From Thermoproteota archaeon (GTDB lineage Archaea; Korarchaeota; Korarchaeia; Korarchaeales; Korarchaeaceae), in assembly GCA_027492205.1 (NCBI GenBank), contig JAOZFN010000009.1, positions 62,001-126,000 on the forward strand: a stretch of DNA of 64,000 bases. The letters run 5' to 3'. Made by a program: the position numbers and the translations under genes. Shown here in pieces: positions 14,706-61,680 of the stretch. Within the stretch, counting starts at the first letter, position 1; each line of letters starts with the position of its first letter. The notes beneath the pieces were generated by a model. It was given only the letters and a program-made list of their open reading frames with translations, searched no databases and was not told the origin of the DNA.

Positions 14706-14710
14706 TTAAG
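14706..14710 (+). promoter_or_regulatory. TATA-like element of the KaiC-like gene
   Basis: TTAAG centred about 26 bases from GTG 14734, consistent with leaderless transcription. It lies about 37 bases from the FmdE start at 14670 and may act in both directions. Confidence 0.35.
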
Positions 14711-14733
14711 CGCGCCATTTATGAGCCCGAAGG

Positions 14734-15540: not shown

Positions 15541-15565
15541 TCTGATTTTGCTGAGTCTGCGCGTC

Positions 15566-15838
15566 TTACACACGTTGGGGCCTCGCAAAGAGACCGTACA
15601 GGCCTAGATAGCTCAGGACGGTTCCCGCCACGGCCGAAATAAACGCCACCATGACGCTTGGGAAATCTGGGGTCTTCCAGTTCATCACCATCGCGAAGGA
15701 CAGTGCCAGAGCGATCAAAAGGAGGATCAGACCCAGTAGAGTCAGCCTTACTGCCCGGGGAACGATCGCCTCCATCGGAGGCGGCTCAGAGAGCGCGAAA
15801 ATGGTGGGTGAGGGGTCGTGGTGGTTCAATTCTCCCAC
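15566..15838 (-). CDS. Small membrane protein, two helices
   Basis: 90 residues (GTG 15838), or about 69 from the internal ATG 15775. There are two hydrophobic segments, about residues 30-50 and 61-83. No family is recognised. It begins directly after the stop of the first peptide-transporter ATPase gene, so it is probably the last gene of that operon and may be a small accessory of the transporter; that is inference. Confidence 0.45.
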   Translation of the reverse strand: MGELNHHDPSPTIFALSEPPPMEAIVPRAVRLTLLGLILLLIALALSFAMVMNWKTPDFPSVMVAFISAVAGTVLSYLGLYGLFARPQRV

Positions 15839-16840: not shown

Positions 16841-16846
16841 GCTCCC

Positions 16847-45509: not shown

Positions 45510-46658
45510 CTGGACGGTGGAGATGAGGTTGTCAAGTTCTGCTATAGGCTTGTCCAGACTCCAAGCCTCTCGGGGGAGGAGGGCGAGGTAGCTGGCCTGA
45601 TCAGAGATGAGATGAACTCACTGGGATTCGACAGGACGTGGGTGGATCGGGCTGGAAACGTCGGAGGTTTGATCAGGGGGTCTGGGTCGGGGCCCGTGGT
45701 GGTCCTGGAGGGGCACATGGACACGGTCCCCCCAGGGAGGGCGGAGGAGTGGGGGGTCGATCCCCTCTCCGGGGAGGTCAGGGACGGCTGGCTGTACGGC
45801 AGGGGGTCCGTCGACATGAAGGGGGCCATAGCGGCCATGGTTCACTCCGCCCTCCTACTGGACTCGGCGGACGCGGACGTGTACATGGCCTTCGTGGTGC
45901 ACGAGGAGGACCAGGAGGGCTTCGGAATCAGGGTGTTCCTTGAGGAGGCAGGAATAAAGCCTGATCTCGTGGTCTTGGGGGAGGCCACGAGGCTCAACGT
46001 GGCCGTGGGGCACAGGGGCAGGGTCGAGATCAGGCTCTCCGCCGGGGGAAGGACGGCCCACTCCAGCATGCCCGATCTGGGGGACAGCGCGCTCTACAAG
46101 TTGGTGGAGGCGCTGGTCAGGCTCAGGGGGATCTCGGGAGAGCTGCCCGAGCACGAGGTCCTGGGGAGGTCCACCGCCTCTCCGGTTGCGATACGCTGCT
46201 CGCCCGGGGTCATTCCCGTCATCCCAGACTCTTGCGAGGTCCTGGTGGACTACAGATTGGTGCCTGAGGAGACGCTCGAGTCGATCCTGTCTAGGATGAG
46301 GTCGCTGAAGCCGGGAATCGAGGCCTCGGTCGTAACCAAGACCATAAGGTGCTACACCGGCCTCGAGGAACGCGTGAGGGCGTACTTCCCGGCCTGGTAC
46401 ATGCCCAGCGAGTTCGCGAGCCTGGTGGTGGGGGAGCTGAGCGGCGAGCTGGTGACTTGGAGGTTCGGAACGGACGGTTCCTACACAGCCGGGGAGGCGG
46501 GAATCCTCACGATTGGGTACGGGCCGGGCGACGAGACCCTGGCCCACAGGCCGAACGAGAGGGTCAGGGTGGCCGACCTGAGGGCGGCCGCGCGGGGGTA
46601 CGCCAGCATAGTCAGGCTGGCCGAGGATCACCTGCCTAGGGGCTCGGGCAGGTCATGA
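45510..46658 (+). CDS. M20 family metallohydrolase (ArgE/DapE-like), probable CTG start
   Basis: 382 residues from CTG 45510. Metal ligands: His in VLEGHMDTVPPGR, Asp in YGRGSVDMKGAI, and a catalytic Glu in VVHEEDQEGFG; the lid domain begins at VAVGHRGRVEIRLSAGG. Starting at the first ATG (45612) would remove the conserved helix VKFCYRLVQTPSLSGEEGEV. The frame has no ATG, GTG or TTG between a TAA at 45468 and 45612, but CTG 45510 sits four bases after GGAGG and 40 bases from a TATA box. It could be an N-acyl or N-carbamoyl amino acid hydrolase. The 3' end overlaps the convergent stress-protein gene by 23 bases. Confidence 0.85.
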   Translation: MDGGDEVVKFCYRLVQTPSLSGEEGEVAGLIRDEMNSLGFDRTWVDRAGNVGGLIRGSGSGPVVVLEGHMDTVPPGRAEEWGVDPLSGEVRDGWLYGRGSVDMKGAIAAMVHSALLLDSADADVYMAFVVHEEDQEGFGIRVFLEEAGIKPDLVVLGEATRLNVAVGHRGRVEIRLSAGGRTAHSSMPDLGDSALYKLVEALVRLRGISGELPEHEVLGRSTASPVAIRCSPGVIPVIPDSCEVLVDYRLVPEETLESILSRMRSLKPGIEASVVTKTIRCYTGLEERVRAYFPAWYMPSEFASLVVGELSGELVTWRFGTDGSYTAGEAGILTIGYGPGDETLAHRPNERVRVADLRAAARGYASIVRLAEDHLPRGSGRS

Positions 46659-47082: not shown

Positions 47083-47348
47083 TCCTCCAGCAGCCTCCCC
47101 ATCCTCTTGTGCGTGTGGAGCACGACGAGGCTGTTGGAGCCGTTGATGCCCTGCTTCTTCAGAATCCTCTTCACGAGGACGCTCCTGAAGTGCTCTATGG
47201 ACTCCGCCTCGACTATCAGGACAAGGTCCTGGTCTCCCGTGACCTCGAACAGGTCGACCACCTCGGGCATCTGCTTGAGTTCGTCGACCAAGGACTCCAG
47301 ATACTTCGCCTCGACATAGAGGTTGATTATCACAAGCATGGAACTCAC
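47079..47348 (-). CDS. Stand-alone Lrp/AsnC ligand-binding (RAM) domain protein
   Basis: 89 residues (about 86 from the internal ATG giving MLVIINLYVEAK). The whole protein is the alpha-beta RAM domain that senses amino acids in Lrp/AsnC regulators; VVDLFEVTGDQDLVLIVEAE is its core. No DNA-binding helix-turn-helix is present. Isolated RAM proteins are known in archaea and probably act as amino-acid sensors or modulate full-length Lrp proteins. Overlap by four bases on both sides ties it to the amino-acid transporter and the Usp gene. Confidence 0.8.
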   Translation of the reverse strand: MSSMLVIINLYVEAKYLESLVDELKQMPEVVDLFEVTGDQDLVLIVEAESIEHFRSVLVKRILKKQGINGSNSLVVLHTHKRMGRLLEE

Positions 47349-49174
47349 CTCCTGAGGACCAACACCTTCCCGGGAAGCCTCGCCGACACCACCCTGGCCA
47401 GGCCCCTCTCTTTAGACTTCATGGCCCGCCTCGACGTGAGCACCACGACGAGGTCGTACCTGTCGCTCGCGCCCTCCATGACAGCCACTTCCACCGGCTC
47501 TCCGTACATAACGGAGGTCGTCGCGAGGATTCCCTTGGATCTCAGCATCTTAGCCGTCTCCGCAAGTAGGGCGAGCGTCCTATCGGTCTCCCTGGAGAGC
47601 TCGTCGGGTGACATGCCCGCGGGGTTGACGACGCTGAGCAGGTGAACCCTGAACCTCCCTCTGAGGCCCTCGGCAACGGCGCGGGCCACCTTCTCCGGAT
47701 CGTCGTAGGGCCTGAAGAGCACTAGGGCGTCCATGAGGTAGTTGGCGGGCCTGGACATCTCCCCACTTATCCTCCCGGTGATCGGAAGGCCCGCCGCCGT
47801 CCGGTAGGCCGCGAAGGCCACGAGGCCAGCCACGAACCACGCCGTTCCCAGGGATCGCCCGACCGGGTGGAGGGCAGCCACCAGGGCGAGCATCACGCCG
47901 GTGGCCAGGGCGCCCAGGAGCCCAACCAGTGGGATCTCCCTCCCACCGACCTTGATGGAGCCCGGCGCCCTCCACGGCCGGTAGGCGTCCCTGTCCAACT
48001 CCCTCAGCCGTATCATGGAGACGTTCACCAAGACGTAGGAGACGAGGGCCCCGAACGCGTACACATCCGCGATCTTCTCAAGACTGCCGAGCAGCGTCAA
48101 GAGCCCCCCGAGGAGGCCGAAGATCACTATGGTCCTCACCGGCGTCCTGAAGCGAGGGTGTATCGCCTTGAACCAAGAGGGCATCAGCCGGAACCTGCCC
48201 ATGGAGTAGACCACCCTCGAGACTCCGATTATCCCCGTGTTGGCGGAGACCAGGTTTATCACGAATCCGGTGGCAGCAACCAGCGCCGGGGCGACTCCGC
48301 CGATCACGGGGAGGGACTCCGCCAAGACGGTGAGGGGCCTCTCCGCGTTCTCGGCCAGGGGCCGCCAGCCGACGGTCCCCACCCCCACCAGGGAGAGCCC
48401 CAGCGCGAAGACCAGAACGGCGGCCACCGATAGCTTGGTGGCAAGCGGAATCCACTTGTAGGGCCTCTTTATCTCCTCGGCCGCCTGGGCGATGGACTCC
48501 ACGCCTATGAAGGAGCTCATGGCCAGCGTGGTGCCGTAGATGAAGTTCTGCTCCCTAACGCCGATGCCCGGTAGGTAGGCGACCTCCTCCCTCACCCCAG
48601 GGAAGCCCACCTGTGAGAGGTTCGCCCTGAGCGTTTCCGCCCTGACGCAGGCCAAGCCTATCAGAAGAAGGATGCCCTGAACTGCCAGGCCGAGGGAGAC
48701 CATTATCTCGTTCAACCTGGAGGACTCCCTGATCCCGACCAAGTTCAGCAGTATCAGGGCGGCTATCATGACTATGGAACACAGGGCGAACCCGTTCAGC
48801 TTGACGCCCAGTAGGCTGTGGGAGAATGAGGCTATTTTAGGGAAGAAATACGATAGGTAGCCAGCCGACGCCATGGAGAACAGGGCGATGTCCACGGTGT
48901 AGCTCAGGAGCAGGGCCCACCCCGCAACAAAACCGGCGAGGTCCCCCAGCCCCCTCGCCGCGTAGACCTGGGCTCCGCCGGCGTATGGGTAGGTTGAGGA
49001 CAGCTCAGCGTACACCAGCCCTGTGAGGACGTAGGCCACGGATGCGAGGCAGAAGGCAAGCGGGAGCCCTCCAGCCGCGTAGGCCGCCACCAGACCGAGC
49101 GCTATGAATATGTCGGCGCCGACATCGGCGTATCCCATGGCGAAGGAGCCGAACCACCCTACGTCCCTTTTCAG
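47345..49174 (-). CDS. APC superfamily amino-acid transporter with C-terminal universal-stress domain
   Basis: 609 residues from CTG 49174. About 12 membrane helices occupy residues 10-445 and end near GRSLGTAWFVAGLVAFAAYR; the remaining 150 residues form a cytoplasmic Usp domain (ALVLFRPYDDPEKVARAVAE to the end). Family-typical N-terminus KRDVGWFGSFAMGYADVGAD is encoded upstream of the first ATG (49138). The only credible start there is CTG 49174, four bases after GGAGGT, with a TATA box at 49235-49242. The Usp tail may gate transport by nucleotide or energy state. Amino-acid import is likely; which one is unknown. Confidence 0.85.
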   Translation of the reverse strand: MKRDVGWFGSFAMGYADVGADIFIALGLVAAYAAGGLPLAFCLASVAYVLTGLVYAELSSTYPYAGGAQVYAARGLGDLAGFVAGWALLLSYTVDIALFSMASAGYLSYFFPKIASFSHSLLGVKLNGFALCSIVMIAALILLNLVGIRESSRLNEIMVSLGLAVQGILLLIGLACVRAETLRANLSQVGFPGVREEVAYLPGIGVREQNFIYGTTLAMSSFIGVESIAQAAEEIKRPYKWIPLATKLSVAAVLVFALGLSLVGVGTVGWRPLAENAERPLTVLAESLPVIGGVAPALVAATGFVINLVSANTGIIGVSRVVYSMGRFRLMPSWFKAIHPRFRTPVRTIVIFGLLGGLLTLLGSLEKIADVYAFGALVSYVLVNVSMIRLRELDRDAYRPWRAPGSIKVGGREIPLVGLLGALATGVMLALVAALHPVGRSLGTAWFVAGLVAFAAYRTAAGLPITGRISGEMSRPANYLMDALVLFRPYDDPEKVARAVAEGLRGRFRVHLLSVVNPAGMSPDELSRETDRTLALLAETAKMLRSKGILATTSVMYGEPVEVAVMEGASDRYDLVVVLTSRRAMKSKERGLARVVSARLPGKVLVLRR

Positions 49175-49414: not shown

Positions 49415-51364
49415 TCACGGCGGAATCCTGATTCCCCTCCTCTCAAGCTCTTCTGCCTCCCCCGTCAGCCCCAGCTCATCCAACCTCGCTCTCCTCGGGA
49501 TCCCCGTCTCAACGTCCCAATTTCTGTACTGGTAGTACTCGTCGAGCATCTGGTCGAGCTCCACCACCTGCCCCTTGGCGGGCCCTCTCGGCATCGGCTC
49601 CTTGGTGAACCTCTCCGGCAGCGAGTCGTCCTTCCTGGTCAGCCCCTCCCTCACGTTAAACAGCCTCTGGAGGTTCACGATCCTGGCGCCGATTAGCCTT
49701 AGGTCGGCCTCCGTGTACTTCTTCCCGGTCACCAGCGTCAGGGCCTCCGCCAGGTCCGGGTAGAAGAAGACCGGCGGGATTATGGTGCCGTACTTGCACA
49801 CGCCCACGGCCTCGACCACGGCCCCGAAGTCCTCCAGCTCCGCCACCATGATGCCCTTGTACTTGGGGTTCAGCCTGTCCGTCATCTCGGGGAGGTACTG
49901 CTCTCCGAACCTCTCGACTATGTCCTTCTCGAAGCCCACCTCGTCCAGCACCGGGAACGCGTAGAGGTGGTCAGCGCCCCTGTTGGAGGTAGCGTGAGCC
50001 AGCCCCATGCTCTTCTGGGCCCTGCCGTCCTGCGCAGCTATCTCCATCTTCTTCACGTGCATCGCGTACTTCTCGGTTCCCCTCCCGATCTTCTTGGCGG
50101 CCCGGTAGACGCCTTCGGCCAGTAGGTCCCCGAAGCCCTTCCTAAGGGCGATCATCTCGATCAGCTGGACTATCAGCTCAGGGTCTCCCCACTCGAGCTC
50201 CAGACCTCCGGTGTCCTCCTTGGTCAAGAGGCCGTTCTCCCAGCACTCCATGGCCCAAGCTATGACCCCTCCGGCGGATATGACGTCCATCCCGTAAAGG
50301 TTGCACAGGTGGTTGGCGTAGATCAGGGCCTCTAGGTCGCTGTTCCCCACGTTGGCCCCCAGCGCGTCCAGACCCTCGTACTCGGGCCCCTTACCTATCA
50401 TGGCGTACTTGCCGGAGGGCACTCGGACGAACCGGCCGCACCTCTGATAGCAGGCGAAGTCTGCCTTTGGCTTGAGCAGGTACTCCCTCGTCACCCTCTC
50501 CCCGGAGATCTTCTCCCACTCGTCGAACACGCCCTCCCTGTGGTTGTACGCCGGCAGCCTGCCTATGGCCTGCATGAGCTCAACCAGGCTGTTGGTGCCG
50601 TACTTCACCCTGTCCGGCGTGAATGGGTGGGCGAGCATCCTCTTGCCGTATTCGATCATGGTCTCGTAGAACTCGTCGGGCCTGGCCACCTTGATGGGTC
50701 TGTACCCCCTGGCCGCGATGGCCTTGAGCCTCTTGGAGCCCATGACGGCGCCGATGCCGGCCCTGGCCGCGGCCCTGCCGTGGTCGTTGAAGACGCCGGC
50801 AAACCTCACCAGGTTCTCCCCAGCCTGCCCTATCAGCGCCGCCTTGACCTGCCTGTCTCCGATCTCCTCCTTGATCATCTCCTCCGCTTCGTAGGTCGTC
50901 CTCCCCCACAGGTGGCTGGCGTCCTTTATCTCGGCCTTCCCGTCCTCGATGTATATGTAGACCGGCTTGTCAGACCTGCCGGTGACCACGACCGCGTCGA
51001 ATCCGGCGAACTTGAGCTCGGCGCCGAAGTGCCCGGCGGCGTGGGCCTCGCCGTAGACGTCGGTGAGCGGGGACTTGGCGGCGACTATGTGCCTGCTGGC
51101 CTGAGGGAATATCGTCCCGGTGAGAACCCCCGTGGCCAGTATGAAGACGTTGTCCGGGCTGAACGGGTCCACCTCCGGTCCGACCAGGTCGAAGAGCCAC
51201 CTGGCCGCGAACCCCGTTCCCCCGAGGTAGTTCAGCGCCAGCTCCTCGTCCAGCGGCTTTGGCACGACCTTCTGTCTGCTCAGGTCGACCCAAAGGATTT
51301 GACCGGCCCAGCCGCCGTACTTCCCGGCAACTCCGATCGACCCCGAATCCATAATCACCTCCAC
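49415..51364 (-). CDS. Tungsten-type aldehyde:ferredoxin oxidoreductase, paralogue 1 (altered cluster motif)
   Basis: 649 residues, AOR family. Domain 1 has GGTGFAARWLFDLVGP and SKRLKAIAARG; pterin and active-site regions include GPEYEGLDALG, GLAHATSNRGADHLY and EAVGVCKYGTIIPP. In the family the 4Fe-4S cluster is held by CxxCxxxC plus a later Cys. Here the first Cys is replaced: DFACYQRCGRF, so Asp occupies the position of ligand one. The late Cys (VGVCKYG) is present. It is the last gene of the seven-gene operon. The start among GTG 51364, GTG 51358 and ATG 51352 is uncertain. Confidence 0.88.
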   Translation of the reverse strand: MEVIMDSGSIGVAGKYGGWAGQILWVDLSRQKVVPKPLDEELALNYLGGTGFAARWLFDLVGPEVDPFSPDNVFILATGVLTGTIFPQASRHIVAAKSPLTDVYGEAHAAGHFGAELKFAGFDAVVVTGRSDKPVYIYIEDGKAEIKDASHLWGRTTYEAEEMIKEEIGDRQVKAALIGQAGENLVRFAGVFNDHGRAAARAGIGAVMGSKRLKAIAARGYRPIKVARPDEFYETMIEYGKRMLAHPFTPDRVKYGTNSLVELMQAIGRLPAYNHREGVFDEWEKISGERVTREYLLKPKADFACYQRCGRFVRVPSGKYAMIGKGPEYEGLDALGANVGNSDLEALIYANHLCNLYGMDVISAGGVIAWAMECWENGLLTKEDTGGLELEWGDPELIVQLIEMIALRKGFGDLLAEGVYRAAKKIGRGTEKYAMHVKKMEIAAQDGRAQKSMGLAHATSNRGADHLYAFPVLDEVGFEKDIVERFGEQYLPEMTDRLNPKYKGIMVAELEDFGAVVEAVGVCKYGTIIPPVFFYPDLAEALTLVTGKKYTEADLRLIGARIVNLQRLFNVREGLTRKDDSLPERFTKEPMPRGPAKGQVVELDQMLDEYYQYRNWDVETGIPRRARLDELGLTGEAEELERRGIRIPP

Positions 51365-52713
51365 CTCCCCATCCTGACGAACTCCCCGTGGCCGGGGCGC
51401 CCGACGGGCTCGCCGTCCTGGGCCACGACCTCACCCCGTACGGTGACCAAGACGGGCCAGCCCCTAACGACGATCCCCTCGAAGGGCGTCCAGCCCACCT
51501 TGTAGTGGAGCCTGTCGGCCCTGATCTCGACCTCCAAGTTCTGGTCGTAGATGACGAGATCCGCATCGGACCCGGGGGCCAGCTCGCCCTTCTTGGGGTA
51601 CATCCCGAACGCCCTCGCCGGGTTGGCGCAGAGGGCCGCGCAGAGCACGGTGGGCGGTATCCCCCACCTGTGGAGCCCCTCGCTCATGGAGATCGGCAGC
51701 AGCGTCTCTACCCCGGGGATGCCGCCCCAGGCCTCCCATATGTCGTCCCAGCCGACCTCCTTCTCTTCCCTGGTGCCGGGGGCGTGGTCCGTGGCGATCA
51801 TGTCCACGCCGCCGGTGAGCAGGGCCTCCCAGAGCCCCCTGACGTCCTCCTTCGTCCTGAGGGGCGGGGTCATCTTGAGGTAGGGCCCCCACCTCCCCAC
51901 ATCGTCCTTCGTGAATACCAGGTAGTGGACGCACGTCTCCGAAGTCACCCTGAGCCCCCTGGCCTTGGCGTGGGCCACCAGCTCGGCCCCCCTGGCCGTG
52001 TTTATGTGGGCAACGTGGTAGTGCCCGCCCACCCTGGCCACTGACTCGATTATCCGGGCCACGGCGACGGCCTCGGCCTCGGGCGGCCTCGAGTCGTGGT
52101 GGGCCAGAGGGTCCTTCCTTCCCTCTACGTCTCTGACCCTGTGGACGCCCCTCTCCACAACTTGGTCGTCCTCCGAGTGGACGACAATCCTGCCACCAAG
52201 CTCGGACGCCCTGATCAGGAGTTCCTCTATGTAGTCGTAGCTGGCCAGGAAGGGCTTGGTGGTGAACGCCTTGAAGGAGAGGACGCCCATCTCCGCAAGC
52301 TCGGGCATCCTCCTCAGGTGCTCCTCGCTCGTCATCATGCCCGCGTGCAGGCTGAAGTCTACGAGGGACTCCCTCCCGCCCACCTCTATCTTCTGCCTGG
52401 CCAGCTCCGGCATGACTGTGAGCACCAGGGGCATGTCCATGAGCAGGGTAACGCCACCGGCAGCGGCGGCCTCGCTCCCGCTCTTCCAGTCCTCCCTGTG
52501 CGTGTAGTCCGGATCGTAGATGTGCGCGTGCGCGTCCATGGCCCCAGGCATCAGGATCTTCCCGTTGGCGTCTATAACCTGGGAGGCCTCTGGCAGGTGG
52601 GGATCCTTGGCCAGGGTCACGATCCTCCCGTCCTGGACGGCGACGCCGGCGCCCTCTATCATGAACTGGGAGGTCAGGACCCTGGCGCCCCGGATCACGA
52701 GGTCAACCGTCAT
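51355..52713 (-). CDS. Hydantoinase/allantoinase/dihydropyrimidinase-type amidohydrolase
   Basis: 452 residues, cyclic amidohydrolase of the dihydroorotase superfamily. All metal ligands are visible: HxH in PGAMDAHAHIYDP, the carboxylated Lys in GVLSFKAFTTKP, His in IVVHSEDDQ, His in HYHVAHINTARGAE, and Asp in MIATDHAPGTREEK. KMTPPLRTKEDVRGLW is the allantoinase/DHPase-type substrate loop. Such enzymes open five- or six-membered cyclic amides or ureides. Position inside an AOR operon with a dihydropyrimidine-dehydrogenase-like gene suggests ring opening after ring reduction. It overlaps neighbours by four bases upstream and about ten downstream. Confidence 0.82.
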   Translation of the reverse strand: MTVDLVIRGARVLTSQFMIEGAGVAVQDGRIVTLAKDPHLPEASQVIDANGKILMPGAMDAHAHIYDPDYTHREDWKSGSEAAAAGGVTLLMDMPLVLTVMPELARQKIEVGGRESLVDFSLHAGMMTSEEHLRRMPELAEMGVLSFKAFTTKPFLASYDYIEELLIRASELGGRIVVHSEDDQVVERGVHRVRDVEGRKDPLAHHDSRPPEAEAVAVARIIESVARVGGHYHVAHINTARGAELVAHAKARGLRVTSETCVHYLVFTKDDVGRWGPYLKMTPPLRTKEDVRGLWEALLTGGVDMIATDHAPGTREEKEVGWDDIWEAWGGIPGVETLLPISMSEGLHRWGIPPTVLCAALCANPARAFGMYPKKGELAPGSDADLVIYDQNLEVEIRADRLHYKVGWTPFEGIVVRGWPVLVTVRGEVVAQDGEPVGRPGHGEFVRMGRWR

Positions 52714-54677
52714 CCGGCCTCTCCTACCCCTCCCTCGCCCTCAGGGGGCCGCTCACTCCTGGGCAGCTTACCGAGGCGCTCCAGCTCGGCGGCGACGTCC
52801 TCCAAGCCGAGTTCCACGAGCTTCTCCCTCGTGGGCAGCCCGGTCTTGAGATCCCACCCCCTCAGGGTGTAGTACTCGTCGAGCATCACGTCCAGGTTAA
52901 CGACCTGTCCCTTCGCTGGCCCGGCCGGCATCGGCTCCTTGGTGAACCTCTCCGGGAGGGTGTCGTCCCTTCTCGTTATCCCGAGCCTGACGTTGAAAGC
53001 CCTCTTGAGGTTGTTTATCCTCTCTCCGATCACCCACATCTCCCTGACGTCCTTAAAGGCCTCCTCTCCCGTGACCAGGTAGGCCAACCTGGCGAAGTCG
53101 TCCATCCAGAATATCGGCGGCCAGCCTACCGTGTACCAGCACACTATGAGCGAGTCCCTCACCGCGTAGGCGTCCTCGTGCATCTTCACGGCCAGACCCT
53201 TGTACGCCTCGGAGTACCCGTTGACCACGCCCTCGACCTTGTCCTCGCCAAACCTCTCCCTGGCAGTGTCCCAGTAGGCGAGCTGGTCCACGGTCACGAG
53301 GGACCTCATGTGGTCCGCGCCCCTGGCCGACACCGCGTGCGTCAGGCCGGCGGACCTGTGGGCCCTGCCGTCCTGGCCGGAGATCTCCAAGCCCTTGACG
53401 TGCATCGCGTACTTCTCGGCGCCCCTGCCGATCCTCTGGGCCATGGCCCTGACGCCCTCGGCCATCAGGTCCCCGAAGCCCTTCCTGAACACGATCATGT
53501 CGAGGGCCTCGAGCATGGCGTGGTAGTCCCCCCACCTGAGCTCGAAGCCCCCGGTGTCGTCCTTCGTTAAGATACCCTTCTCGAAGAGCTCCATCACGAA
53601 GGACATAGTCTTTCCAGCGGATATGACGTCGACTCCGTACTTGTTGCACAGCAGGTTTAGCCTGAGGATGGCGGGGAGGTTGTCGCACATGGCGCTGGAG
53701 CCGAAGGCGAAGACGGCCTCGTACTCGGGCCCCCCGGTGAAGGTGCCAGCGAACTCGCCCGCCCTCACGAGGTGCTTCTTCTTGCAGGCCGTGCTGCAGC
53801 CGAAGCAGGACTTAGTAGCCACCCAATACTTCTCTCTGAGCGTCTCGGCGTCTATGGAGTGGTAGCGGTCGAACACGCCCACCCAGTGGTTCTTCGTCGG
53901 GAGTTCGCCGATGGCCTGCTTAACCGCCACGAGCATGGGGGTGCCGAACCTCCTGAGCTCCATGGCCTGGTCCGACTCCAGGACCCTCCTGTGCCCCTCT
54001 AGGGCGAACTCGTAGAACTCGTCCGGGTGGGCCACCTCGACTGCCCCGAATCCCCTCACAGCAATGGCCTTGAGCCTCTTGGAGCCCATGACGGCGCCCA
54101 TGCCGGTCCTGCCGAACGCGTCGTGGTAGTTGGTGATTATGGCGGCGTACTTCACCAGGTTCTCGCCGGCCTGGCCGATGCTGGCCACCTGCACCGCCGG
54201 GTCCCCGAGCTCCTCCCTGATCATCTCGGTGGTCTCGTAGGTGTCCTTCCCCCACAGGTGGCTGGCGTCCCTGATCTCCACCTTTCCGTCATAGATGGAG
54301 AGGTAGACGGGCTTGCTCGACGCCCCCTCTACCACGATCATGTCGTAGCCAGCGTACTTGATCTCGGGCCCGAAGTGCCCGCCGGAGTGGGCCTCTCCCC
54401 ATATCCCGGTGAGCGGGGACTTGGACACCGCGACGACCCTGCCCGAGGTGTGCCATATGGTGCCCGTCACCGGACCCGTGGCTACGATCAGCTTGTTGTC
54501 CGGGCCCAGCGGGTTGACCCCCGGACCGACCTCCTCCCAGAGGAGCCTAGCCGCCATGCCGTCGCCGCCGAGGTACTTGCGGGCCCACTCCTTGGGAGTG
54601 TTCACCTCCCTGATCTTGCCTGAGGTGAGGTCGACCCGCAGTATCTTGCCCGCGTACCCCTTGTACGGGAACCGCAA
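52710..54677 (-). CDS. Tungsten-type aldehyde:ferredoxin oxidoreductase, paralogue 2
   Basis: 655 residues with a complete AOR pattern: the tungstopterin domain, the cluster motif SCFGCSTACKKKH (CxxCxxxC) plus the later Cys in SLIVCWYTVGWPPIF, and the active-site region GPEYEAVFAFG and GLTHAVSARGADHM. It oxidises aldehydes to acids, or the reverse, with ferredoxin-type electron transfer. It is closest in the window to paralogue 3 (shared CWYxVGWPPxF and KGAxH-type segments). Start TTG 54677. It follows a four-cluster polyferredoxin by four bases, its likely electron partner. Confidence 0.9.
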   Translation of the reverse strand: MRFPYKGYAGKILRVDLTSGKIREVNTPKEWARKYLGGDGMAARLLWEEVGPGVNPLGPDNKLIVATGPVTGTIWHTSGRVVAVSKSPLTGIWGEAHSGGHFGPEIKYAGYDMIVVEGASSKPVYLSIYDGKVEIRDASHLWGKDTYETTEMIREELGDPAVQVASIGQAGENLVKYAAIITNYHDAFGRTGMGAVMGSKRLKAIAVRGFGAVEVAHPDEFYEFALEGHRRVLESDQAMELRRFGTPMLVAVKQAIGELPTKNHWVGVFDRYHSIDAETLREKYWVATKSCFGCSTACKKKHLVRAGEFAGTFTGGPEYEAVFAFGSSAMCDNLPAILRLNLLCNKYGVDVISAGKTMSFVMELFEKGILTKDDTGGFELRWGDYHAMLEALDMIVFRKGFGDLMAEGVRAMAQRIGRGAEKYAMHVKGLEISGQDGRAHRSAGLTHAVSARGADHMRSLVTVDQLAYWDTARERFGEDKVEGVVNGYSEAYKGLAVKMHEDAYAVRDSLIVCWYTVGWPPIFWMDDFARLAYLVTGEEAFKDVREMWVIGERINNLKRAFNVRLGITRRDDTLPERFTKEPMPAGPAKGQVVNLDVMLDEYYTLRGWDLKTGLPTREKLVELGLEDVAAELERLGKLPRSERPPEGEGGVGEAG

Positions 54678-54680
54678 CCC

Positions 54681-55184
54681 TCACACCCCTGCCCTCTTCG
54701 GGGCCATCAGGTTCTGGGCCACCTCCTGCATCCTGAGGGCGACCATCCTCCTCTTGGTGTCGTCGGCCTGGTCGGCCCTGACCCACTTGATGGCGCCCGT
54801 GGGGCAGATCCTGGCGCACTGCGGGTCTCCGCCGCACCAGTCGCACTTCAGTATGCTGTTGGTCTCGGCGTCCCACCCCACGCCGCCGAACGGGCAGGCG
54901 GTGATGCAGGACTTGCATCCAATGCACCTCTCGGCCTCGTATACCACGAGCCCGGACTCCTCGTCCTTCCACAGCGCGCTGGTCGGGCACGCCGCGACGC
55001 ACGGCGCGTCGTCGCACTGGAGGCACGTGACGGGAACGTCGAGTCCGCGGTCCTCGAACTTCACCACCGTGATCCTAGACCTGGAGGGCTGGATCACACG
55101 GTAGTGATGGAAGGAGCAGGCCCCCTCGCAGAGCCTGCACCCGGTGCACAGCTCGGGCGTTATCAGCAACATCATCTGGGCCAC
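54681..55184 (-). CDS. Four-cluster polyferredoxin (HycB/AorA type), paralogue 2
   Basis: About 168 residues from GTG 55184, chosen because GGGAGGT lies about seven bases upstream. Sixteen cysteines form four 4Fe-4S motifs: CTGCRLCEGAC, CLQCDDAPCVAACP, CIGCKSCITACP and CDWCGGDPQCARICP. This is the HycB/DmsB-like electron-transfer subunit also found with bacterial AOR complexes (AorA). It is cytoplasmic, with no signal peptide. Position directly upstream of an AOR gene, four bases away, makes it the electron carrier for that enzyme. Confidence 0.85.
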   Translation of the reverse strand: MAQMMLLITPELCTGCRLCEGACSFHHYRVIQPSRSRITVVKFEDRGLDVPVTCLQCDDAPCVAACPTSALWKDEESGLVVYEAERCIGCKSCITACPFGGVGWDAETNSILKCDWCGGDPQCARICPTGAIKWVRADQADDTKRRMVALRMQEVAQNLMAPKRAGV

Positions 55185-55235
55185 AAAAACCACCTCCCAA
55201 CCCATTTCGCCTACCTCGCGGGACAAGGAAAAAAT

Positions 55236-56423
55236 TCAGGAGGGCGGGAAGGTAACCGCCCTGACGGGGCAGATGCTCACGCAGACGCCGCAGCCGTAGC
55301 AGGCGTACTGATCCACGACTGCCGTCTTCTTGCCGCCCCCTCCCTCTACCCTGATGGCGTTGTACCTGCAGGCCTGCTCGCAGATGCCGCAGGCGGTGCA
55401 CTTCTCCGGGTCCACCACCGGGTTCCGGACCTCGTAGTTGGGCTCCTCCCTCATGTGCTTCAGGGCGATGCCCCTGATGTCCTCCACCGAGTCGTAGCCG
55501 TGCTCCTCTAGCCACTTCGCTATCTCCCTGGCCACCCTGCCGTAGATCCCCGGGCCCTCGATTATGGCGCCGGTGCAGATCTGCACGGCCGAGGCGCCGG
55601 CCATGAAGTACTCTATGGCGTCCTCTCCCTTCGTGACGCCGCCCACCCCTATCACCGGCAGGTTCGTGTTCCTCGCGACCTCTGCAACCACTCTCACTCC
55701 CAGCGGCTTGATCGCCGGGCCGGAGAGCCAGCCGTAGCCGTACTTCCCGCCGAGCATAGGCTTGCCCTCCTCTATGTCGATGTGCAGCGTCGGTCCCAGC
55801 GAGTTTACCGCCACGATCCCGTCTACGCCTATCTTCTCCAGCTCCTTGGCGAACTCGGGCAGGTTGAGGATGTGCGGGCTCAGCTTCGCGAATATCGGGA
55901 TGTCAACCGCCTCCCTCAGGGCCTTGGCGATCTCCAAGATGGGCTTGTAGTCTACCCCCACGTAGTGGAGGGAGAACTCTATGCCGTCCACGCCCGCCTC
56001 CTGCACCTTCTTACCGAGGAAGCTGACCTCCTCGGCCGTGTACCCTATGCTGGCTATCAGGGGTAGGCCGGAGCTCTTGGCCAGCCTGTACTCAACGTCG
56101 AGCCAGCGCTGGTAGGGCAGGTCCGACCAGAGCTCGGTGTTCAGGAGGCCCCTCGGCATGAAGAGCTTGGTCCTGGTCCTCCTGACGATCCTCCCCCCCG
56201 CGGCGTAGAACACGTCGAAGTCGGTGAACCCCCTGTCCAGGACCACCATGGTGGGCCTTGGAACCTTGGCGGGCTCAACGCTGATGGTCTTGGCCACGAG
56301 CCCGCCAACCCCTGCCCTGGCCGCCGCGAGCAGGGCGGCCGCGTTCTGGCTGGGCGGTCCGGCGGCCGTGAGCACGGGGTTCCTGAACCTGATTCCGGCG
56401 ACCTCAACCGTCAGGTCCACCAT
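55236..56423 (-). CDS. Dihydropyrimidine/dihydroorotate-dehydrogenase-like iron-sulfur flavoprotein
   Basis: About 395 residues from ATG 56423 (GGAGGT upstream). The FMN barrel shows FRNPVLTAAGPPSQN, IFAKLSPHILNLPEFAKE, GIVAVNSLGPTLHID, GWLSGPAIKPLGVRVVAEVA and VIGVGGVTKGEDAIEYFMAGAS, all typical of PreA/PyrD. The C-terminus carries CTACGICEQAC and CYGCGVCVSICP. The normal catalytic segment after the glutamate, NxSCPN, is replaced by FSLHYVG, so the usual catalytic Cys or Ser is absent. Substrate and direction of electron flow are therefore open. Confidence 0.8.
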   Translation of the reverse strand: MVDLTVEVAGIRFRNPVLTAAGPPSQNAAALLAAARAGVGGLVAKTISVEPAKVPRPTMVVLDRGFTDFDVFYAAGGRIVRRTRTKLFMPRGLLNTELWSDLPYQRWLDVEYRLAKSSGLPLIASIGYTAEEVSFLGKKVQEAGVDGIEFSLHYVGVDYKPILEIAKALREAVDIPIFAKLSPHILNLPEFAKELEKIGVDGIVAVNSLGPTLHIDIEEGKPMLGGKYGYGWLSGPAIKPLGVRVVAEVARNTNLPVIGVGGVTKGEDAIEYFMAGASAVQICTGAIIEGPGIYGRVAREIAKWLEEHGYDSVEDIRGIALKHMREEPNYEVRNPVVDPEKCTACGICEQACRYNAIRVEGGGGKKTAVVDQYACYGCGVCVSICPVRAVTFPPS

Positions 56424-56428
56424 CGTGC

Positions 56429-58363
56429 TCACCTCCACCTACCGGCCAGCTCGCCTAGGCCGAGTTCCCTCAGGGTCTCGTCCTTGGGCACGCCTGTCTC
56501 CTTGTCTATGCCGGCGGCCTCGTAGTAGTCGTCCAGCATCTCGTGGAGCCTGCAGACGTGGCCCTTCGCCGGTCCGGTGGGCATGGGCTCTTTCAGGAAC
56601 CTATCTGGGAGCGTGTCGTCCTTCCTCCTGAGTCCCTCCCTCACGTTGAACATCCTCCTATGGATGGCTATCCTCTTGGCTATCCTCTTGACCTCGTTGG
56701 GGTCGCCGAACTCCGCTATGCCCGTGGCCGCGGCGGCGGCCCTGGCCATGTCGGGGTAGTAGAAGACGGGCGGCCAGCCGACCTCGTACCAGCATATTAT
56801 CAGGGAGTTGCCAAGCGCGTAGAGCATCTCAAGGTCCCAGACGAGCCAGCCCTTGTACCTGGTAGATTGGGGATCCACTAGATCCTTCACCTTGTCTGCA
56901 CCGTACCTCTCCGCGGCCACCTGCTCGTACCCCCTCTCCTCGAGGCAGGAGAGCGAGGTGAGGTGGTCGGCCCCCCTGGCGGCCGTCGCGTGCGTCAGCC
57001 CGGAGGACTGGTGGGCCCTGCCGTCTTGGGCGGAGATCTCGTTGCCCTTAACGTGCATCGCGAACCTCTCGGTCCCCCTGCCTATGATCTCGGAGGCCCT
57101 CTTGCTCCCCTCCGCTATCATGTTCCCGAACCCCTCTCTGAAGGCCGTCTTCTTCACCAGCTCGACCATGGCCTCCGCGTTGCCCCAGCTCAGGTCAAGT
57201 CCTCCCGTTTCCTCCTTCGTCAACAGGCCGTGCTCCCAGCTCTCCATGGCCCACGCAATCGTCATTCCCAGAGAGATCGAGTCCATCCCGTAGAGGTCGG
57301 CCAGGTGGTTGGCGTAGAAGACCGCCTCGACATCCTCGACGAGCAGGCTGGACCCAAACGACACCAGGGCCTCGTACTCAGGTCCCTTGTAGATCCCGGC
57401 GTAGGGCTCCTTCCTCGACCTCACGAAGTACTTGCACTGCACCAGGCAGCCGAAGCAGCTGGCCTGCTTGACCCTGAACTCCTCCCTGATCCTCTCCCCC
57501 CCAATGAGGTGCGCCTTCTCCCAGTAGCCGGTCCAGTGGTTCTTGACCGGCATCCTCCCCATGGCGTTTATGGCCTCTACCAGGTTTGGCGTCCCGTACT
57601 TGGTGAGCGTCTCCTTCAGCGCGTCGCCCCAGTCCACCAGGAGCTTCCTGTATGCGTCATCGACGACCTCCATGAAGAGCTCGGGCTTCGCGACCCGAAC
57701 CCCCCTGCTCCCCCTTACGGCTATGGCCTTGAGCCTCTTGGAGCCCATGACCGCGCCCATGCCCGTCCGGCCGGCCGCGTTGCCGAGGTCGTTGATGATG
57801 GAGGCGAACCTCACCGTGTTCTCTCCGGCCGGGCCGATGGCCGCGACCTTGAACGTCTCGTCCCCGAGCTCCTCCCTGATCATCTGTATGGTCTCGAAGG
57901 TCGTCTTCCCGCCGTAGAACCTACCGTTCCTCTCCTCGCCCCAGAGGTGGCTGGCGTCCCTCAGCTCGACGAGGTCGTCGTCGATGACCAGGTAGACCGG
58001 CCTCTCCGCCCTGCCCTGTATCACGATGAAGTCGTATCCTGCGAACTTGAGCTCGGGGCCGAAGAATCCGCCGGCGTTGGCGTGACCCCAGATCCCTGTG
58101 AGGGGCGACTTGGCGTTCACCTGGTACCTCCCCGCCGCCGGGAACATGGTGCCGGTCAGGGGGCCCGTGGAGATGACGAGCCTGTTGTCCGGCCCGAGCG
58201 GGTCCGTGTGCTCGTCCACCTCGTCCCAGAGTATCTTGACCGCGAACCCCAGACCGCCCAGGTAGTTTCTGATGAGCTCCTTCGGGGTCTCCTTTACCCA
58301 GACCTTCCCGGACGAGAGATCCACCCTCAGGTACCGCCCCGCGTATCCGCCCAACTCCACCAC
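56429..58363 (-). CDS. Tungsten-type aldehyde:ferredoxin oxidoreductase, paralogue 3
   Basis: 644 residues, complete AOR family pattern. Cluster ligands: ASCFGCLVQCKYF (CxxCxxxC) and the late Cys in SLIICWYEVGWPPVF. Active-site segments: GPEYEALVSFG and GLTHATAARGADHLTS. The N-terminus is VELGGYAGRYLRVDL. It starts with GTG four bases after the stop of the first polyferredoxin and ends with a short overlap into the flavoprotein gene. With 58367-58861 it forms an AorAB-like pair, mirrored by 54681-55184 and 52710-54677. Confidence 0.9.
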   Translation of the reverse strand: MVELGGYAGRYLRVDLSSGKVWVKETPKELIRNYLGGLGFAVKILWDEVDEHTDPLGPDNRLVISTGPLTGTMFPAAGRYQVNAKSPLTGIWGHANAGGFFGPELKFAGYDFIVIQGRAERPVYLVIDDDLVELRDASHLWGEERNGRFYGGKTTFETIQMIREELGDETFKVAAIGPAGENTVRFASIINDLGNAAGRTGMGAVMGSKRLKAIAVRGSRGVRVAKPELFMEVVDDAYRKLLVDWGDALKETLTKYGTPNLVEAINAMGRMPVKNHWTGYWEKAHLIGGERIREEFRVKQASCFGCLVQCKYFVRSRKEPYAGIYKGPEYEALVSFGSSLLVEDVEAVFYANHLADLYGMDSISLGMTIAWAMESWEHGLLTKEETGGLDLSWGNAEAMVELVKKTAFREGFGNMIAEGSKRASEIIGRGTERFAMHVKGNEISAQDGRAHQSSGLTHATAARGADHLTSLSCLEERGYEQVAAERYGADKVKDLVDPQSTRYKGWLVWDLEMLYALGNSLIICWYEVGWPPVFYYPDMARAAAAATGIAEFGDPNEVKRIAKRIAIHRRMFNVREGLRRKDDTLPDRFLKEPMPTGPAKGHVCRLHEMLDDYYEAAGIDKETGVPKDETLRELGLGELAGRWR

Positions 58364-58366
58364 GCA

Positions 58367-58861
58367 TCACCCCTGGGGGACTATCAGTGAGATCAGCCTG
58401 GCGGACCTCTGGGCCCCGTCCACCTTCTTCTGGTAGCCAACCTGGTCGGCCCTGACCCACTTGATGGCGCCCGTGGGGCACCTCCTGGCGCACTGCGGGT
58501 CTCCGCCGCAGAGGTCGCACTTCACCACCTGGAAGGTCACCGGGTCCACCTGAATGCCGCCGAACGGGCAGGCGTTGAGGCACTGCTTGCACTCTATGCA
58601 CTTGGACTTGTCGAGGAAGACGGCGTTGCCGAACTGGTATAGGGCGCCGGTCGGGCAGGCCTCGACGCAGAGGGGCTTGCCGCAGTGCTGGCAGGTCATG
58701 GGGATGAAGACGCCCTCGAAGTCATTCCTCAGGACCTGTATGTAAGATCGCCTGGGGTTGAACTCGCCGTAGTGATGGAAGGAGCAGGCCTCTTCACAAA
58801 TCCTGCACCCGGTGCACTTGTCGGGGTCTATTACCAAGAGGTTCTGAACCCCCTCAACCAT
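58367..58861 (-). CDS. Four-cluster polyferredoxin (HycB/AorA type), paralogue 1, first gene of the AOR operon
   Basis: 164 residues from ATG 58861, preferred because the TATA box (58913-58920) places the transcript start at about 58890 and GGTGATC lies just upstream. Sixteen cysteines form four clusters: CTGCRICEEAC, CQHCGKPLCVEACP, CIECKQCLNACP and CDLCGGDPQCARRCP. It is a paralogue of 54681-55184, with the identical GAIKWVRADQ near the end. It probably carries electrons for the AOR encoded four bases downstream. Confidence 0.87.
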   Translation of the reverse strand: MVEGVQNLLVIDPDKCTGCRICEEACSFHHYGEFNPRRSYIQVLRNDFEGVFIPMTCQHCGKPLCVEACPTGALYQFGNAVFLDKSKCIECKQCLNACPFGGIQVDPVTFQVVKCDLCGGDPQCARRCPTGAIKWVRADQVGYQKKVDGAQRSARLISLIVPQG

Positions 58862-58912
58862 GTGATCACCGCCAGCCCTGAATGGGCCGAACAAGGGGCT
58901 CCCACAGAGACC

Positions 58913-58920
58913 AAATAAAT
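58913..58920 (-). promoter_or_regulatory. TATA box of the seven-gene AOR operon
   Basis: Minus strand ATTTATTT about 55 bases before ATG 58861. No other promoter is evident inside the operon, where genes overlap or lie within about 50 bases of each other. Confidence 0.55.
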
Positions 58921-59060: not shown

Positions 59061-60365
59061 TCAGCCGCCCAGGGCCGGCCCGACTACGTTGTCGACCCAC
59101 CACTGCATGGACCAGAGCTCGTCGTGGCCTAGCCTCTGGCCGGCCATGACCCTCAGCGTCCCCTGGTCGTCGTAGATGGGACCGGTGAAGGGATCGAAGA
59201 CCTCGTCGTTCACGAACACCCACCCGCTGCCTGTCCAGACCGCGCCCATCTGGATGAGCCTGGCCATCACGAGGGTGTAGACATCCGGGTTCTCGATTAC
59301 GGTGCCGTTGGGCAGCTGGATGGTCTCCTGGACCCTGACGGACTTGAGCTCGTTGATGAACTTGGGGTTGATCGGCTGGTTGAAGGCGCAGCCCAGCTCG
59401 ACGGAGCCCTCCTTCAGCTTCCACCAGTAGTCTACGTTCTGCAGGTTCTGGGTGTTGTAGGAACCGGAGTATATCTTGCTCAGGATGTCGTCGTAGATCA
59501 CCTCCCAGTGCACCAGCTGACCGCTGACGCAGACGTCGGGACCGTATTCAAGCATCGGGCTGTAGTGGCCGAAGGCGAGGACCCTCTCGCCCCTCTCGAA
59601 GTGCTCCTGGGCGACCTGGACGACGGTCGGCGAGTCCTCCGTGAATGCCAGCACGTCGACGCCCTCGGAGATCAGGGCCTCGGCGGCCTGCCTGGCCTTG
59701 GTCGGATCGTACCAGGCGCCTATCTCCCTGACGTAGACCTTGCAGTCGGGGCAGACCTCCTTGACGCCCAGCGCGAAGGCGTTGATGTGCCTCACCACCT
59801 CGGGGATCAGGTGCGCGGCGACGTAGCCGATCTTCTTGGTCTGTGTCAGGGCGCCGGCCATCAGGCCGTTCAGGTAGTAGACCTGGTAGAAGTCGGCGAA
59901 GTAGGTGCCCATGTTGGGAGCCCTCTTGTAGCCGGAGCAGTGCCAGAAGATCTTGTCGGGGTGCTTCTGGGCCTCCTCGAGGGTCGGATCCATGAAGTCG
60001 AAGCTTGTGGTGAAGATCACGTCGTAGCCCTTGCCGATCAGCTGCTCTATCACTCCGGCGCACTCGGCCGGGGCGACCGACTCCACGTGGGTGGTCTCCA
60101 GCCAGTCGTACTTCTGGTCGACCATCTCCTTAGCGGCGTGGTGAGCGTAAGTCCAACCGATGTCCCCGATCGGTCCAACGTAGATCCATGCCGCCTTGAT
60201 CTTCTTGGCTGGGGGTGCCTCGCACGGAGGGCAGGTTGCCGGGGCCGGGGTTTCGGTCGGACACGGGGGGCACTCCGCCGCGCCCTTCGGCGCCGCAAGG
60301 TACCCGATCGCCGCCCCGACTATGATGCCGACTATAACTAAGGCAGCCCACTGGGAGGAGGTCAT
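59061..60365 (-). CDS. BMP/PnrA-family ABC substrate-binding protein (nucleoside type), N-terminally anchored
   Basis: 434 residues from ATG 60365, where GGGAGGGAT lies just upstream and a TATA box is at 60418-60425; an ATG at 60419 lies inside that TATA box and cannot be the start. A membrane helix (SSQWAALVIVGIIVGAAIGY) is followed by a linker with four Cys-containing PPC repeats, then the BMP fold: AAWIYVGPIGDIGWTYAHHA, VIEQLIGKGYDVIFTTSFDF, HPDKIFWHCSGYK. Family members bind purine nucleosides or related ligands. It lacks a canonical lipobox and is helix-anchored. It is the last gene of the transporter cluster. Confidence 0.87.
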   Translation of the reverse strand: MTSSQWAALVIVGIIVGAAIGYLAAPKGAAECPPCPTETPAPATCPPCEAPPAKKIKAAWIYVGPIGDIGWTYAHHAAKEMVDQKYDWLETTHVESVAPAECAGVIEQLIGKGYDVIFTTSFDFMDPTLEEAQKHPDKIFWHCSGYKRAPNMGTYFADFYQVYYLNGLMAGALTQTKKIGYVAAHLIPEVVRHINAFALGVKEVCPDCKVYVREIGAWYDPTKARQAAEALISEGVDVLAFTEDSPTVVQVAQEHFERGERVLAFGHYSPMLEYGPDVCVSGQLVHWEVIYDDILSKIYSGSYNTQNLQNVDYWWKLKEGSVELGCAFNQPINPKFINELKSVRVQETIQLPNGTVIENPDVYTLVMARLIQMGAVWTGSGWVFVNDEVFDPFTGPIYDDQGTLRVMAGQRLGHDELWSMQWWVDNVVGPALGG

Positions 60366-60417
60366 GTCTATCCCTCCCACGGAGAGCGTGGGTGAGTTGA
60401 TTGCCGATTTGATGCCC

Positions 60418-60425
60418 ATAAATTT
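60418..60425 (-). promoter_or_regulatory. TATA box of the BMP gene
   Basis: Minus strand AAATTTAT, transcript start predicted at about 60395, 30 bases before ATG 60365. It allows the binding protein to be expressed separately from the permeases. Confidence 0.55.
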
Positions 60426-60735: not shown

Positions 60736-61680
60736 CTACTTCTCTCCCCTCACGTAGGGCACTCCGAGTGCTGCCGGAGCCCCCATTCTCCTCCTCATGG
60801 TCTCCGTGGCGCCGGCGGTGAGAACTATCACCGTTAATAGGTACGGCACTCCGTTCAGGAGCCACTGGCTGTACCCGTAGGCCTGCAGGGTGTACCCCCC
60901 GGCCTCGACGACTCCAAACAGGTAGGCCCCGAATATTGCCCTCAGCGGGTTCCAGAGGGCGAATATCGTGAGCGCCAGCGCTATCCATCCCCTGCCAGCT
61001 GTCATGTTCTCTATCCAGGCCGGGCTGTAGGCCACCGACAGGTAGGCCCCGGCCATGCCGGCCAGGGCCCCTCCAAGGGCTGTGCAGGCGTACCTCACGA
61101 GGTAGACGTTAATTCCGAGGGCGTCGGCGGCGGCGGGGTTTTCGCCCGTTGACCTGATAACTATCCCCACCTTGGTCCTGTAGAGGACGAACCAGAGGAC
61201 GACGGCGATAACTATGCTGAGGTAGAATAGCGGCTCCTGGTCGAACAGGGCCTTACCCACCAACGGGAGCTTGACTAGGCCCTCCGAGAGGGGCTTTGGG
61301 AGGAACCTCGCCTTGACGGGTAGCTGATAGCCGACGTACTTTCTCCCGATCACGCTGCTCAGCCCGAGCCCGAACATCGTGAGGGCCAGGCCGGAGACGA
61401 CCTGATTGCCCCGGAGGTGGATGCTGATTACCCCGTGTATGAGGGACATTAGTAGGCCGACCGCCGTCGCCACGGCCACGCCCAGCCAGGGGTTGCCCGT
61501 GGTCAGTGCGGTGATGAAGGCGGATACCGCCCCCATTATCATCATGCCCTCGACGCCCAGGTTGAGTATTCCCGACCTCTCGGCGTAGATCTCGCCGAGA
61601 GAGGCCAGGAGGAGGGGGGTCGCCGATCTGAAACCGACCCACAGGATGTTCTCAACCACCGACAGGTCCATCCGCATCAC
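60736..61680 (-). CDS. ABC transporter permease of the BMP/nucleoside family (second permease)
   Basis: 314 residues with about eight to nine membrane helices. LLLASLGEIYAERSGILNLGVEGMM is conserved in this permease type, cut here as LASLGEIYAERSGILNL; HLRGNQVVSGLALTMFGLG and VIRSTGENPAAADALGINVY (cytoplasmic loop) are further hallmarks. The family works with a duplicated ATPase and a BMP protein to import nucleosides or similar compounds. Its start overlaps the other permease by four bases. Confidence 0.87.
   Translation of the reverse strand: MMRMDLSVVENILWVGFRSATPLLLASLGEIYAERSGILNLGVEGMMIMGAVSAFITALTTGNPWLGVAVATAVGLLMSLIHGVISIHLRGNQVVSGLALTMFGLGLSSVIGRKYVGYQLPVKARFLPKPLSEGLVKLPLVGKALFDQEPLFYLSIVIAVVLWFVLYRTKVGIVIRSTGENPAAADALGINVYLVRYACTALGGALAGMAGAYLSVAYSPAWIENMTAGRGWIALALTIFALWNPLRAIFGAYLFGVVEAGGYTLQAYGYSQWLLNGVPYLLTVIVLTAGATETMRRRMGAPAALGVPYVRGEK

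Follow-up and report, generated by a model that had tools for sequence, protein, structure and literature searches.

A 64,000-nucleotide stretch of a Thermoproteota (Korarchaeota) genome (GenBank assembly GCA_027492205.1, contig JAOZFN010000009.1, positions 62,001 to 126,000; hereafter the window) carries on its minus strand, at 49415-58894, seven open reading frames (ORFs) encoding three paralogues of the aldehyde oxidoreductase (AOR) family, two polyferredoxins, a flavoprotein and a cyclic amidohydrolase. We read this block as an archaeal operon for reductive purine/urate degradation, with tungsten-type AORs that would hydroxylate and dehydroxylate the ring and share electrons with the flavoprotein, UacX, through the polyferredoxins; we put the probability of this reading at roughly 0.64. 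Its parts differ in strength. It is very likely that the block serves an archaeal pathway of the reductive purine type, and the AORs probably act directly on the purine ring; a division of three ring positions among the three AORs is doubtful.

The seven ORFs are tightly packed, with consecutive gaps of 3, -10, 9, 3, -4 and -10 nucleotides (nt), and the block stands 166 nt from the upstream BMP gene and 276 nt from the downstream APC permease gene. From the first gene onwards they encode FdA, a polyferredoxin resembling the electron-transfer subunits AorA, WorS and BamC (58367..58861; Pfam Fer4 families); AOR3 (56429..58363; AFOR_N/AFOR_C domains); the UacX-like FMN/[4Fe-4S] flavoprotein (55236..56438; DHO_dh and two 4Fe4S domains); FdB, a second polyferredoxin assigned by Pfam (54681..55226), which by gene order pairs with AOR2 (52710..54677); a HyuA-like cyclic amidohydrolase, HYD (51355..52713; Amidohydro_1, hydantoinase/allantoinase group); and AOR1 (49415..51364). 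An FdA-type gene likewise precedes the AOR gene in most cluster loci. Ahead of the first gene lies a TATA-like box read directly in the sequence, TTTATTTG (58912..58919, minus strand), which is identical in a relative of the same genus (G001) and recurs as the same motif before the same gene in another genus (G002). The box sits 18-25 nt ahead of TTG 58894, which had been taken as the first start; because this is too close, ATG 58861 is the likelier start of FdA.

The window corresponds to positions 62001-126000 of contig C11 in a 1.94-Mb genome of 17 contigs (G000); its phylum set, probably Korarchaeia-like, holds only 29 genomes. Gene order and orientation are kept in G001, with proteins 96-100% identical, and again in G002, with identities of 78% for AOR3, 80% for UacX, 69% for FdB, 71% for AOR2, 68% for HYD and 79% for AOR1; a third genus retains a fragment of the operon. 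The order and orientation kept in G001 and G002 exclude chance for the gene block, and on sequence grounds we take the seven genes to form a real operon. A preliminary description of this DNA had named the same ORFs, coordinates, strand and families and the tight packing behind a single TATA box, all of which stand; by domain content the families are AFOR_N+AFOR_C (three proteins), multi-[4Fe-4S] (two), DHO_dh+2x[4Fe-4S] (one) and Amidohydro_1 (one). It had also staked its idea of one pathway on the genes being linked in relatives, and G001 and G002 show that linkage.

The flavoprotein connects the operon to a described pathway. In the bacterial reductive uric acid pathway (Li et al. 2025, PMC12507026), UacX and SsnA convert yanthine to ureidomethyl-hydantoin with a low-potential electron donor. 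The preliminary description had called the window protein PreA-like, and PreA is its best NCBIfam name, albeit below cut-off. It shares with dihydropyrimidine dehydrogenase (DPD; PreA/PydA) the DHODH-type FMN barrel, the C-terminal 2x[4Fe-4S] domain and the N609, E611, K709 and N736 positions. In place of the N668-x-S-C671 of pig DPD and E. coli PreA, however, it has S-L-H-Y, with N668 replaced by Ser and the C671 loop deleted, and its operon holds no PreT partner. The earlier label thus does not suit a protein that has S-x-H-Y in place of the catalytic Cys and Asn of DPD.

A scan of GTDB genomes gave 80 UacX loci. The S-x-H-Y motif is present in nearly all of the ~80 homologues, and SsnA is encoded beside UacX in 53 of the 80 loci, many of the remainder being short contigs. 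Bacterial uricolytic loci among them serve as positive controls: a Peptostreptococcaceae locus (L122) combines SsnA, YgeX (54% identical to the E. coli protein), YgeY (70%), a carbamoyltransferase, UacX, HyuA and a xanthine dehydrogenase (XDH), and the Acetomicrobium, L119, L121 and L127 loci resemble it, with YgeY at 60-70% across bacterial loci. These controls therefore place the window flavoprotein in the UacX family of the published pathway. Judged by its residues and linkage it is UacX, the reductase of that pathway, predicted to carry out reductive dearomatisation of a dioxopurine (yanthine). Elsewhere in the survey, Desulfurococcales (L076-L090) share a conserved OTC-OTC-carbamate kinase-SsnA-UacX-ThrC-like block and Hadesarchaea (L100-L112) an HYD-SsnA-UacX arrangement; clusters for reductive purine breakdown thus seem to be common among archaea, including at loci that lack an AOR.

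The published pathway starts with a molybdenum enzyme of the XDH family that reduces urate to yanthine (PMC12507026). Among the 80 UacX loci, XDH lies near UacX in 19 and an AOR in 12, all archaeal; none has both (two additional loci, whose AOR is distant and unrelated, are not counted). The AOR-type loci come from the window's family, Geothermarchaeota, Baldrarchaeota, 'Thaumarchaeota' AUK039, Hermodarchaeota and Thorarchaeota. A Sporomusaceae locus (L126) with SsnA, two permeases, BMP, ATPase, UacX, HyuA and XDH is the window's set with XDH for AOR. The AUK039 locus (L075) assembles in one block two carbamoyltransferases, HyuA, three ferredoxin-AOR pairs, UacX, a deaminase-like gene, a threonine-synthase-like (ThrC-like) pyridoxal-phosphate (PLP) enzyme gene and SsnA. 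Genome-wide, XDH (PF02738) occurs in 3 of the 14 AOR-linked UacX genomes versus 44 of 54 others (Fisher p=4.9e-5, with genomes that are not independent); collapsed to lineages, it occurs in 2 of 8 on the AOR side.

The AORs of these clusters are themselves distinctive. They group in a single clade (support 98/96) that excludes P. furiosus AOR/FOR, Aromatoleum AOR, E. coli YdhV and other AORs encoded in the window's genome, which has 12 AOR matches in all. The AOR1 orthologues (100/100) come from the window's family, Baldrarchaeota, AUK039 and Hermodarchaeota, and those of AOR2 (100/100) span several phyla. We aligned 26 cluster AORs and give residues in P. furiosus numbering. All 26 keep T243, E313 and H448, and all 26 have Q427 (Tyr in six canonical comparators), D447 (Cys or His there) and E482 (Gln there); Y452 is Leu or Phe in 24. 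The resulting E313-Q427-D447-H448-E482 signature (EQDHE) corresponds to E331, Q446, D466, H467 and E512 in AOR3 and to E320, Q435, D455, H456 and E501 in AOR2, and is present in AOR1. In known AORs, Tyr427, Glu313 and His448 surround the tungsten and Tyr427 positions the aldehyde; its replacement by His accompanies new chemistry in WOR5/ASOR (PMC12096430). The cluster AORs accordingly depart at position 427 from the second-shell set Thr243/Glu313/Tyr427/His448 of AOR sensu stricto.

Within the 24-genome family, the signature is confined to the five genomes with UacX (p=2.4e-5). The 48 other UacX genomes examined yield it in Hadesarchaea-type archaea and in a single Anaerolineae genome, at a distance from UacX. 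In the window's genome, contig C11 can be joined to C9, whose beginning matches the final 496 bases of C11 at 99.6% identity (L041, L046); the join completes a further ferredoxin-AOR pair, with the signature, ~40 kb from the operon. The cysteines C291, C295 and C494 are present in 26 of 26 cluster AORs and C288 in 21, the remaining five (AOR1 group) having Asp. AOR1 and most of its orthologues read D-F-A-C-x-Q-R-C, with Asp (AOR1 residue 302) for the first [4Fe-4S] Cys, which suggests an Asp-ligated cluster of altered potential.

Compared with Aromatoleum AorAB, Wor1LS of Eubacterium/Acetomicrobium and P. furiosus WOR5/ASOR, the window AORs share the AFOR_N/AFOR_C domains, the [4Fe-4S] Cys motif, the T243/E313/H448 part of the second shell and a small polyferredoxin partner gene. 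They differ in Y427Q, C447D, Q482E and Y452L/F, in their separate clade, in their purine-degradation context and in the Asp of AOR1. Class II benzoyl-CoA reductase BamBC also joins an AOR-family catalytic subunit to a ferredoxin subunit and reduces an aromatic ring, but among the relatives with solved structures BamB scores lowest (226 bits versus 458 for P. furiosus AOR), and no other Bam genes were recognised in the operon. The cluster AORs are best described as AOR/WOR-family proteins with a plausible new function.

Genes around the block supply further context. Upstream and co-oriented on the minus strand lie a BMP (PnrA-like) substrate-binding lipoprotein (59061..60419; PF02608, 138 bits) and two BPD_transp_2 permeases and the ATPase of the same ABC importer, identified by Pfam (60736..63991; 60736-61680, 61677-62753 and 62750 onward), the ATPase running past the window end to about 64318. 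This importer is retained upstream of the block in G001 and G002. About 0.5 kb beyond the window end, next to the importer and divergent from it, as also in G001, is SsnA, the enzyme published as the pathway's marker (NF005540, 554.8 bits, cut-off 444; TIGR03314, 531.4 bits, cut-off 455.5). Downstream follow an APC-family permease with a C-terminal Usp-like part (47345..49138, minus strand; Pfam), conserved in G002, with 60-69% at L067; a YgeY-family M20 hydrolase (45510..46658, plus strand), predicted to hydrolyse ureido groups, with a 57% orthologue downstream of the block in G002; and a YqeA-like carbamate kinase (44459..45433, minus strand; TIGR00746, 434 bits, cut-off 358; 44% to E. coli YqeA), predicted to make ATP from carbamoyl phosphate. 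SsnA, the importer, YgeY and carbamate kinase thus give the block a purine context on both sides. The preliminary description, correct on the block itself, had overlooked this nucleoside-type transporter, the SsnA outside the window and the downstream YgeY and carbamate kinase.

The M20 gene at first scored below the YgeY cut-off because its listed start, ATG 45612, lies too far in (296 bits versus 321); extended upstream to 45510-46655, it passes with NF009555 at 329.7 bits. The added stretch, 45510-45612, encodes a conserved N-terminus without an ATG, GTG or TTG start, and the gene may use a rare start codon. A PALP gene at 41304-42386, considered as YgeX, was rejected as a cysteine synthase (NCBIfam TIGR01139, 356 versus 351). 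Class III aminotransferase and hydroxyisobutyrate-dehydrogenase-like genes also lie in the window, outside the block conserved in G002.

From these genes we infer a route, including its substrates and products, the direction in which each AOR works, the use of tungsten, the electron partners and the parts played by carbamoyltransferases and a PLP enzyme. The BMP-type importer would take up purine nucleosides or bases. AOR paralogues with their polyferredoxins would hydroxylate hypoxanthine to xanthine and xanthine to urate, and dehydroxylate urate to 2,8-dioxopurine (yanthine), thereby taking the roles that XdhA and XdhD have in bacteria. UacX would reduce and dearomatise yanthine with ferredoxin electrons, SsnA would open the six-membered ring and the HyuA-like hydrolase would open the hydantoin ring to give 2,3-diureidopropionate. 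Carbamoyltransferases, the YgeY-like M20 hydrolase or both would take off the two ureido groups, carbamate kinase would make ATP, and diaminopropionate would be cleaved to pyruvate and ammonia by a ThrC-like PLP enzyme whose gene lies outside this region. With hypoxanthine as the starting point, the two hydroxylations would release four electrons, and dehydroxylation plus ring reduction would take up four; the polyferredoxins could pass these from the AORs working oxidatively to UacX and the AOR working reductively. Such a balance would explain why AORs, ferredoxins and UacX share one operon. The low-potential interconversion of R-COOH and R-CHO by the AOR family is a chemical analogue of that between lactam C=O and C-H.

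Candidates for the later steps vary in how closely they match known enzymes. The HyuA-like hydrolase is 31% identical to E. coli HyuA and has orthologues at 44-68% in other UacX-SsnA loci; its NCBIfam matches to allantoinase, dihydropyrimidinase and dihydroorotase fall below cut-off, the exception being the broad TIGR00857 subfamily. AUK039 and Hermodarchaeota each have two carbamoyltransferases, and the window's genome encodes two candidates of the OTC/AcOTC type, at C11:151467 and C3:109889, which do not reach the YgeW cut-off. Its ThrC-like PLP protein (C7:16560) is 58% identical to that of AUK039, a protein type found in other UacX loci. In another genome (L195, G023:C1), a carbamoyltransferase, a ThrC-like PLP enzyme and a carbamate kinase 74% identical to the window's stand side by side at 14335-17749, a candidate for the energy-yielding tail of the pathway.

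Set against the C. difficile-like, UacX-type reductive uric acid cluster of PMC12507026, the window locus has the same SsnA, UacX (PF01180 plus ferredoxin domain, without an FAD domain), HyuA-type and YgeY-type M20 hydrolases, carbamate kinase (YqeA in the E. coli cluster) and adjoining transporter. It differs in having AORs and polyferredoxins instead of XdhD or another XDH, in lacking a genuine YgeX, in being archaeal and in its BMP-type ABC importer. SsnA, a reductase of the YgfK-or-UacX kind, a HyuA-type hydrolase and YgeY are thus in place; the XdhD homologue and YgeX are missing at the locus, and for that reason we do not count the operon as a strict member of the pathway. The preliminary description had known of no pathway with this exact set and was nearly right; without the AORs, the set is that of the 2025 bacterial pathway.

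Several observations weigh against the proposed route. In searches of AOR-type genomes, YgeX (TIGR01747) exceeded its cut-off in 0 of 17 genomes and YgeW in 0 of 14. The G002 locus shows a carbamoyltransferase in the place of SsnA (the rest of that genome was not searched), and the other AOR loci yielded no carbamate kinase. All archaeal genomes named here were assembled from metagenomes. Three AOR-linked genomes do carry XDH, namely the window's own and its close relative G001 (two XDH-type proteins each) and the Geothermarchaeota genome (one), and these need not rely on AORs. The simple argument 'no XDH in the genome, hence AOR' is therefore untrue for the window's own genome, and the case for AOR in place of XDH rests on its relatives. 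Among UacX genomes tested for both, XDH occurs in 7 of 20 with signature AORs and 32 of 33 without; the p=1.1e-6 of this contrast is flattering, as seven UacX genomes without XDH fell outside the AOR test and, if all were signature-less, would bring it to p=0.0012. In the window's genome the two XDH-type large subunits are encoded on contig C4 (L064, G000:C4:46000-65900) together with FAD-type subunits, a branched-chain-type ABC importer and a third hydantoinase, 37% identical to that of the window; this is likely yet another heterocycle-degradation locus.

The same XDHs give some room to an explanation that keeps the purine/urate pathway and makes the AORs ordinary aldehyde oxidisers, or acid reducers, that supply or drain ferredoxin for UacX, ring hydroxylation being done by XDHs elsewhere or not needed. 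AOR-polyferredoxin pairs are, after all, known aldehyde oxidoreductases (AorAB, Wor1LS; PMC12096430), and the catalytic E313 and H448 are kept. Yet in the 11 of 14 AOR-linked UacX genomes without XDH nothing else was recognised for the XdhD step; the aldehyde-positioning Tyr427 is Gln throughout and two further positions are newly acidic; and mere electron supply requires neither two to three conserved orthologous paralogues nor their tracking of UacX presence. We consider this explanation clearly less likely than action on the ring, at something like an outside one-in-a-handful chance. The aldehyde or acid chemistry that the preliminary description had assigned to the partner reaction is not supported, the AORs having lost Tyr427; its broader idea of one dedicated redox pathway with low-potential (ferredoxin) electrons is supported, as is linkage in relatives.

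Less probable still is that the same architecture handles another bicyclic or monocyclic N-heterocycle, such as another oxopurine, a pterin or a hydantoin derivative, with urate not an intermediate. A second module in the window's genome (L039, G000:C5:1-20000; relatives L044 and L045) suggests a toolkit adapted to at least one other substrate: it combines a UacX-like protein with T-C-L-Y and D736T, two signature AORs, a polyferredoxin, an M20 hydrolase, an ATZ/TRZ-type deaminase, a hydantoinase and an ECF-type transporter, and is probably the same toolkit turned to another heterocycle. The window module, by comparison, matches urate clusters in its SsnA, its YgeY and the S-x-H-Y motif of its UacX. 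The earlier proposal that a flavoprotein reduces the ring of an N-heterocycle before a cyclic-amide hydrolase acts on it is supported.

We reject the reductive pyrimidine, hydantoin or dihydroorotate pathway towards which the preliminary description leaned (PreA/DPD, dihydropyrimidinase and ureidopropionase, with AORs on a later semialdehyde), and rate it very improbable: the sub-cut-off PreA name and the hydantoinase, M20 hydrolase, aminotransferase and dehydrogenase genes of the window speak for it, but the flavoprotein lacks DPD N668 and C671, SsnA scores above cut-off next door and recurs in most complete loci of the UacX family, the M20 enzyme scores as YgeY, and the aminotransferase and dehydrogenase lie outside the conserved block.

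Returning to ring chemistry by the AORs, we advance a broader proposal tentatively, at somewhat short of even odds: a new AOR/WOR subfamily marked by EQDHE would hydroxylate and dehydroxylate purine carbons with ferredoxin, replacing molybdenum XDHs in several archaeal phyla and permitting a redox-neutral, ATP-yielding purine fermentation in which the paralogues split C2, C6 and C8. Our literature searches, which left subscription papers out of scope and are no proof of absence, turned up no publication that links AORs with the degradation of urate or purines and nothing on AOR with hydantoinase or DPD, or on Korarchaeota with purine; AOR, tungsten, purine and XDH together returned only two historical reviews. 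The text of PMC12507026 mentions neither archaea nor tungsten, and the electron donor of the pathway's first enzyme is listed as open (PMC12990295); a polyferredoxin common to the (de)hydroxylase and UacX is the arrangement suggested here.

The reductive uric acid pathway itself is already known from bacteria; AORs in the place of XDH would, if confirmed, be a new job for the AOR family. If the proposal is true, that family adds the ring carbons of N-heteroaromatic compounds to a substrate range of aldehydes, sulfonates and benzoyl-CoA, and the uric acid pathway of 2025 extends to archaea. The molybdenum XDH family, with which purine hydroxylation has long been associated, would then be joined by a second, unrelated catalyst of that reaction, and the EQDHE residue signature makes the idea directly testable.

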